Assembly: GCA_029552945.1 (NCBI GenBank)
Contig: JAKPDD010000032.1
Span: 1 to 64,000 of the forward strand
Length of the DNA: 64,000 nt
DNA from: Spirochaetota bacterium
GTDB lineage: Bacteria > Spirochaetota > GWB1-36-13 > JAKPDD01
Reading direction: 5' to 3'
The notes beneath the pieces are model-generated. The model searched no databases. It was not told where the DNA came from and saw only the letters and a list, made by a program, of their open reading frames with translations. Each line of letters starts with the position of its first letter. Within the stretch, counting starts at the first letter, position 1. The position numbers and the translations under genes are program-made. This document shows, one piece after another, positions 5,162 through 47,818 of the stretch.

Positions 5162-5240
5162 AACTTAAAAGTAATTATTAAAAATCTAAGGTTAAAATAG
5201 AATTTTTTAAAAAATAATAAAAGAGAGTAATTTAAACATA

Positions 5241-5578
5241 AAGAGGGGGCAATAAGCCGGATTCTGTTTATGGTAGCATTTCTCTTGAAAAGGCAATTGC
5301 TTGCCTTTTTCTAGCTGCCCACCAACAGGCATTAGTAGGCTTAACCTGTTTATGGCATTGCTTTGGGAGGGGTTTACCATACAACTGAACCTTGCGGTCA
5401 GCCTGGTGGTCTCTTACACCACCTTTTCACCCTTACCAGTTTTTAAATTCTGGCGGTATATTTTCTGTGGCACTTTCCGTCACCTTTCAGTGCCCAGGTG
5501 TTACCTGGCTCCCTTGCCTACAAAGTCCGGACTTTCCTCTAACCTAAAAATAGGTTAGCACTACCCTTGCCCCCTCTT
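5241..5578 (-). ncRNA. rnpB: RNase P RNA (bacterial)
   Basis: Minus strand contains GAGGAAAGTCCGGAC and GAATCCGGCTTATTGCC; terminal P1 helix aagagggggcaa/ttgccccctctt joins both ends. Confidence 0.95.
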
Positions 5579-46429: not shown

Positions 46430-46486
46430 TATATCCCCCTAATTTTTTTTTTTTGAAAAAATTGAAAAAATTTTTTTATAAAAAAA

Positions 46487-46516
46487 ATTACTAAAAACCC
46501 CCCCCCCCCAAGTCAA
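46487..46516 (-). promoter_or_regulatory. Candidate sigma70-type promoter with a G12 tract in the spacer
   Basis: Minus strand TTGACT-T-GGGGGGGGGGGG-TTTTT-AGTAAT (18-bp spacer; 17 bp to TAGTAA), upstream of the rhodanese CDS. Confidence 0.5.
46498..46509. repeat. Homopolymer tract C12 (+) / G12 (-)
   Basis: aaaaaccccccccccccaagtc, the only long G/C homopolymer noticed in this AT-rich window. Confidence 0.97.
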
Positions 46517-46567
46517 GAAAAAATTAAAAATATAAATAGTAAAGTTAATTTTAGACTAATTAACTTT

Positions 46568-47818
46568 TTAAGACTTGACTACTTCATTAAGTTTTTCATG
46601 AATAAAAAAAGATATTTTCCTAACATCATCATCAGTAAGTTCTAAGAAAGAAAGTCCAATCATGTTTTCATTGATATTTTGAACCCTAAGTTTAGCTTTA
46701 ACAACAAACCCTTTAAGAGAAAACTGCCCTTCAAATATAGAACCAACAGATACTTCTGAAATATTTTGAGGTGGGAACTCAACTAAAACACCACCTACAC
46801 TTATATCAAGTATTTTAACAGTCAAAGTGTTAATATCTTTTAAGCCAGAATAAATTATAAGTTTTGCCTTATCTTCATCAGATAGTTTTACTCTTACATG
46901 TTTTCTTGCAACATTGTATTTAACCCCTATCCTCTCCAATAAAAGCACCATAGCTTTTGCGGTTTTTATGTTATCAAAGTGTTTTGGTATATATCCTAAT
47001 AAATTGTTTTTATACTTTTCATATAACTCTTTATTCCACTCTTTCTCAGAACAATAGAAAACAATTTTAATATTAGGAGAAACATTAAGAATTTTATCCA
47101 TTATCTCATACAGTGATTTATGACTTATAAGGTTAAAAACACCTATAAAAACTAATGAAATATCTTTACTTTTAATTAGTTCACAAAGCATTGTAATATC
47201 ATTAACAGAATATATACTAAAACCTTTAGGTATAAAAACCTCTATAAAAAAACTAGTAACTATTTCGGTTATATTATATAGAACTATACCCGCAGGATCA
47301 AGTATAATATCTTCTTTAAGAACAAGATAGATATTAAAATCCCCTATAGGACTTGTTAACTCTATTACCCCGAGCTTGGTATTTTTATAAAATATATTAA
47401 TGTTTTTACCAATATATACCTTTGGCGGCATTATATTACAGTTAAGATTAATCTCTTCAAGGAACCCCATAGCATTACCAGCAATCATATTTGACATCTC
47501 AAGTATAGAAGCCTCTAACATCTTTGTATCATACTCAGACAATGCATTCCCCACAACATCTTTAGCAAGCTTAAAAGCAAGGTCCCGGGGAAAGTCAAAT
47601 ATAATCCTTGTCTCTATATCACCTACTATTCTTATTTCAACTTTTATATCTCCTATAGACTTATGTCCATCTAAAGGATAAACCTCCTTTTTATTGAACT
47701 TTATAGTGGTTATTTCATTTAAAACTTTAATTGCAGCTTTTAAAAAGGGAATTACTATTTTTATATTATTTTCAACTGTCTTTTGTTTCTCCATTAACCA
47801 TCCCTTTCTTAGAAACAT
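46568..47818 (-). CDS. CheX-like phosphatase domain + receiver-like region + C-terminal PilZ domain protein
   Basis: CheX-like LEASILEMSNMIAGNA (ExxN); PilZ ARKHVRVKLS and DISVGG; likely start at MEKQKT (about 47794). Confidence 0.8.
   Translation of the reverse strand: MFLRKGWLMEKQKTVENNIKIVIPFLKAAIKVLNEITTIKFNKKEVYPLDGHKSIGDIKVEIRIVGDIETRIIFDFPRDLAFKLAKDVVGNALSEYDTKMLEASILEMSNMIAGNAMGFLEEINLNCNIMPPKVYIGKNINIFYKNTKLGVIELTSPIGDFNIYLVLKEDIILDPAGIVLYNITEIVTSFFIEVFIPKGFSIYSVNDITMLCELIKSKDISLVFIGVFNLISHKSLYEIMDKILNVSPNIKIVFYCSEKEWNKELYEKYKNNLLGYIPKHFDNIKTAKAMVLLLERIGVKYNVARKHVRVKLSDEDKAKLIIYSGLKDINTLTVKILDISVGGVLVEFPPQNISEVSVGSIFEGQFSLKGFVVKAKLRVQNINENMIGLSFLELTDDDVRKISFFIHEKLNEVVKS

Follow-up and report, generated by a model that had tools for sequence, protein, structure and literature searches.

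On the minus strand of the window, as we call the whole 64,000-nt stretch of DNA analyzed here, a gene for a rhodanese-domain protein is followed, in the same direction and after a gap of 21 nt, by a gene for a methyl-accepting chemotaxis protein (MCP), just as a preliminary description of the sequence had it (Table 1). The rhodanese matches its Pfam family with 83.1 bits against a cut-off of 22.2, begins with a hydrophobic segment resembling a signal peptide and carries the catalytic cysteine in an active-site loop, CKKGGR. The signaling domain of the MCP scores 110.5 bits against a curated cut-off of 34.6, and hydrophobic segments at residues 4–37 and 177–212 flank a sensor region of ~140 amino acids. 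These features bear out the earlier naming of the pair as an exported sulfurtransferase-like protein and a chemotaxis receptor. The sensor region matched no family in Pfam, and a single-sequence structure model of it reached a pLDDT of 56, which is too poor to name the fold. The genome encodes 13 MCP signaling domains, as well as homologues of the FlaA family, a mark of spirochaetes that is absent from 14 control genomes.

On its 3′ side, the MCP gene converges with a gene for an acetate kinase-like protein, and a GC-rich hairpin separates the two, so that the presumed transcription unit consists of the rhodanese and MCP genes alone; we infer that these are co-transcribed. Upstream, a gap of 138 nt separates the rhodanese gene from a gene whose product combines a CheX phosphatase-like domain with a c-di-GMP-binding PilZ domain. 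In the one genome of the same order that we compared (G001), this CheX–PilZ gene (49% identity) is conserved together with its upstream neighbors, among them the DUF4015-type gene that precedes it. A spermidine-synthase-like gene sits there where the rhodanese–MCP unit would be expected, and the rhodanese homologue of that genome is located elsewhere. The position of the operon is therefore particular to the lineage of the window, and G001 offers no orthologous promoter or tract for comparison. Searching genome contigs with the rhodanese returned distant rhodaneses only and no near relative. Elsewhere in the window (5238–5577, minus strand) lies a bacterial RNase P RNA of class A.

Table 1. 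Features of the rhodanese–MCP locus, with positions in the window.
Feature	Positions	Strand	Evidence or remark
Methyl-accepting chemotaxis protein (MCP), 593 aa	44198–45979	−	Pfam PF00015, E = 1e-31
Rhodanese-domain protein, 142 aa	46001–46429	−	Pfam PF00581, E = 2e-23
AGGGGG region, presumed Shine–Dalgarno sequence of the rhodanese gene	46434–46440	−	Sequence; putative
A12 tract of the putative leader, 5′ of the ribosome-binding site	46443–46454	− (coding strand 46454–46443)	Sequence
Weak −10 candidates 3′ of the tract: AGTAAT (46492–46487, spacer 18) and TAATTT (46490–46485, spacer 20)	46485–46492	−	Putative
G12 homopolymer (C12 on the plus strand)	46498–46509	−	Sole G/C run of at least 10 in the genome
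TTGACT, strong −35-like hexamer, separated from G12 by one base	46511–46516	−	6.1 bits
AT-rich inverted repeat around AGTTAATT..AATTAACT	46541–46567	−	Once in the genome; may act as an operator or weakly terminate the upstream gene
Gene with CheX phosphatase and PilZ domains	46568–47818	−	Pfam

Within the 138-nt gap, the minus strand reads TTGACT (46516–46511), T, G12 (46509–46498), TTTTT (46497–46493) and AGTAAT (46492–46487), in agreement with the arrangement first reported. After G12, the longest run of C or G in the window measures 5 nt; the earlier remark that no other run exceeds about 5 is thus correct for C and G, and it overlooked an A12 tract in the same gap. A pattern search of the whole assembly (1,869,830 bases in 50 contigs) counted 29 G7 runs, a single G8 and a single G9 besides the G12, which makes the tract an outlier of the genome's run-length distribution, as would be expected of a phase-variable promoter that works through spacer length. 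The G7 runs, all but one of them read at their loci, appear to be mostly coding or Shine–Dalgarno-like; the G9 run lies directly ahead of the start codon of another gene. The G12 tract is intergenic. Under a first-order Markov model, ~0.007 runs of at least 12 C or G are expected genome-wide, which upholds the view that such a run is very improbable by chance, and the figure from a crude geometric extrapolation is at most 0.04 per genome. With 106 occurrences of TTGAC in the 128,000 strand positions of the window, the chance of finding one 0–3 nt upstream of a given run is roughly 0.3%. Both real and exceptional, the G12 tract is sited where a contingency element would be.

Among the A/T runs of the window, the A12 tract is the longest, so that a single gap contains both of the most extreme homopolymers. 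The A12 tract is one of 16 A runs of at least 10 in the genome, and the chance that one such run should land in the 138-nt gap is about 0.1–2%. The longest A runs that we found in the genome, A13 and A15 (loci L136 and L142; contigs C26 and C48, the latter very short), lie inside or beside broken reading frames.

We scored promoter elements with an E. coli-type matrix and a spacer penalty; the matrix is borrowed, and the scores are calculated values. TTGACT is one of the best-scoring −35 hexamers in the window, as its description as near-consensus implied. The −10 hexamer proposed along with it, AGTAAT, does lie at a spacing of exactly 18 bp, within the 17–18 bp claimed, but it lacks T−12 and A−11, the two most conserved positions of TATAAT, and is not supported in that role. 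The other registers available at G12 (TTTAGT at 15, TAGTAA at 17 and TAATTT at 20) are weak as well. Together, these −10 choices yield scores of 3.8–5.4, and the best total of 5.4 ranks 15th among 24 upstream regions of the window. When the length of the tract is varied in the calculation, the best values near the present length fall at G8–G10, where TAATTT comes to stand at a spacing of 16–18 (17 at G9) and the score reaches 6.6–7.0 versus 5.4 at G12; at G13–G15 the scores rise again by way of the weaker TTTAGT. This modeling suggests that G12 may be a weak transcription state and G8–G10 better ones. A good hexamer, TATAAA, is found further downstream, but its distance of 30 nt from TTGACT exceeds that of a promoter spacer. 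The inverted repeat, ~25 nt upstream of the −35 element, folds no better than many shuffled sequences, and its single occurrence in the genome provides no regulon. We also looked for an intrinsic terminator at the G12 tract and found none.

Across 395 genomes of the phylum, TTGACN{0,4}G8 is common, and many of its matches fall in coding sequence. The stricter pattern TTGACN{0,3}G8N{0,8}TANNNT gives 44 matches, corresponding to ~31 distinct sites in 19 genomes, compared with 3 for the reversed pattern that served as control. The window's own site does not match this pattern at G12. Near-perfect promoters are among the sites (for example, TTGACA-C-G14-A-TATAAT in G342, TTGACA-AC-G10-TGC-TATAAT in G270 and TTGAC-G17-TATTAT in G009), and TTGACT-G13-CGTGT-TATCCT in G269 is a further clear case. 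The genes downstream mostly encode lipoproteins and other envelope proteins, and in addition MCPs. Four of the ~31 sites, from three independent lineages, precede an MCP gene: one in G009, one in G270 and an orthologous pair in G154 and G158. The genomes with these sites carry 13–18 MCPs each, well under 1% of their genes by estimated gene number, so that ~0.2 such sites would be expected by chance among 31 versus the four found, in a count made post hoc. In the near-identical genomes G154 and G158, the tract is G9 in both, and variation is thus not seen there either. For the genus to which G154 belongs, the better −35 may be another TTGACA that lies eight bases farther upstream, and the poly-G would still fall inside the spacer. 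Among 146 genomes of that genus, the more distant homologues of this MCP whose upstream DNA was read lack the tract at that position; one of them, in L241, has a C10 further upstream.

Two other observations from the phylum concern different kinds of genes. In one genome (G207, loci L202–L210), some ten promoters share the form TTGAC-G8 to G10-TAT.., and nearly all of them precede lipoprotein-like genes, several of these paralogous; this set is a candidate phase-variable lipoprotein family. In G342, the gene behind the G14 promoter (L199, upstream of 372) encodes a PD-(D/E)XK nuclease domain and may be a defense gene under phase-variable control.

We consider slippage that alters promoter geometry the most likely explanation of the locus: the G12 tract would tune the promoter of a rhodanese–chemoreceptor operon, for which it is a good candidate, if a tentative one. 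As a simple sequence repeat that would lie within the promoter of the two genes or at its margin, the tract would gain or lose single Gs by replication slippage. Each gain or loss would shift the distance from TTGACT, as the active −35, to the −10 region, and the altered spacing would make expression of the exported rhodanese and the chemoreceptor differ among the cells of one clone. Transcription would then start just downstream of the tract, within ~10 nt of AGTAATTTT. This reading draws on the fact that the only G run of at least 10 in 1.87 Mb is intergenic and adjoins a strong −35, on the recurrence of the layout across the phylum (44 versus 3 matches) and on the precedent in Treponema pallidum. 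Against it stand the want of a good −10 at any plausible spacing for G12, the mismatch of the site with the phylum pattern, the different genes downstream in G001 and the identical G9 tracts of G154 and G158. The proposal of a phase-variable promoter in the preliminary description accordingly keeps its outlying tract, its strong −35 and the layout found in relatives, and finds no support for AGTAAT as its −10.

That same weakness of the −10 takes away the best reason to place the tract in a promoter spacer, and it leads to the main functional rival, in which G12 lies within the mRNA leader as a G-repeat under the control of a small RNA, after the manner of tlpB and RepG. A candidate promoter, TAGTCT-18-TATATT, precedes the tract and with a score of 4.6 is on a par with the −10 choices at G12, so the tract could lie in the leader; the tlpB operon of Helicobacter pylori, moreover, is itself a chemoreceptor operon whose variable G-repeat is the target of a small RNA (PMC8295292). 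Nevertheless, we regard a leader mechanism as unlikely, given the strong TTGACT directly against the tract. An Rfam scan of the window recovered RNase P and no other small RNA, and the predicted leader folds no better than shuffled sequences. A different role for the tract would be to set the distance or helical phase between the site of an upstream regulator and a promoter whose −10 lies further downstream. Here the inverted repeat, a palindrome unique in the genome, could provide the site, and TATAAA, usable with an activator, the −10. Neisseria offers cases of this kind: action through a regulator has been proposed for the tract of opc (as cited in PMC7864442) and shown for nadA, where operators of a repressor flank the tract (PMC2791445). 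The palindrome is AT-rich, however, and with a fold no better than that of many shuffles it could also be where the upstream transcript ends, and any regulator is hypothetical; we judge this arrangement improbable.

The main alternative that gives the tract no function is that G12 arose by chance, or because mutation expanded a run of Gs, in a gap under weak constraint, where it may well slip without any selected role. The A12 run in the same gap could mean that the gap merely tolerates homopolymers, and the fit to a promoter at G12 is poor. Species with phase variation usually carry many such tracts, and this genome has a single one. Neutrality is harder to reconcile with the rarity of runs of at least 12 under either estimate, with the low chance of a position against TTGAC and with a layout that recurs in the phylum well above the control, and on balance we think it rather unlikely, though a serious contender. 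Finally, the count of twelve, or the tract itself, might be an error of sequencing or assembly. The data are a single draft assembly of 50 contigs, and homopolymers are a weak point of all platforms, so the length may be wrong. But the tract is embedded in a contig of 290 kb and flanked by normal genes, and the next longest G run of the genome is 9, which shows no general excess of long G runs; we hold such an error to be very improbable.

If the tract varies, the cells of a clone would differ in one chemoreceptor, which would produce stochastic diversity of behavior rather than of surface antigens, outside the classical arms race between host and pathogen. It is conceivable, if doubtful at present, that spirochaetes beyond the known pathogens too use poly-G spacers as contingency switches for chemoreceptors as well as for surface lipoproteins. 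Were that so, clonal populations would hedge over the stimuli that they follow, and the rhodanese–receptor operon of the window would be one instance. A literature search of partial coverage returned few papers on phase-variable chemoreceptors with homopolymeric tracts, and none on a chemoreceptor of a spirochaete. This type of mechanism is known; what is of note is the target, a rhodanese and a chemoreceptor, and the recurrence of poly-G promoters before MCP genes in the phylum. The phylum scan also amounts to a ready list of spirochaete poly-G promoters.

Among characterized systems, the tlpB–hp0102 operon of H. pylori shows how a G-repeat can tune the expression of a chemoreceptor, there at the level of the mRNA. 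The length of a variable G-repeat in its leader, 12 Gs in strain 26695 as against 7 in X47-2AL, decides the outcome of control by the small RNA RepG (PMC8295292). Like the locus in the window, it comprises two genes, one of them for a chemoreceptor, behind a G-repeat that counts 12 in one strain; it differs in that the repeat is part of the mRNA leader and works by way of a small RNA, and in that the partner gene encodes a glycosyltransferase and not a rhodanese. In Neisseria meningitidis porA, a poly-G tract lies between the −35 and the −10, and its length sets the spacer (as cited in PMC7864442). The layout is that of the window, in an unrelated organism and before an unrelated target, with a working −10 in porA where that of the window is poor. 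The sites in the other spirochaete genomes (G342, G009, G154/G158, G270, G207 and G269) likewise have TTGAC, G8–G17 and then a −10; their −10 is better than that of the window, and the genes downstream are not orthologous to its operon. T. pallidum provides the precedent within the spirochaetes. In tp0126, a poly-G tract lies between the −35 and the −10, with an optimum of 17 nt; in tprE, tprG and tprJ, transcription is permitted at eight or fewer Gs; and in tprL, tract length ranges from 7 to 11 within isolates, with an effect on promoter and reporter output (PMC7864442). There, variation and reporter effects have been demonstrated, and the targets in that host-restricted species are outer-membrane proteins, in place of a rhodanese and a chemoreceptor behind a weak −10. 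The two have in common a spirochaete setting and an envelope gene with a poly-G tract in or beside its sigma-70-like promoter.
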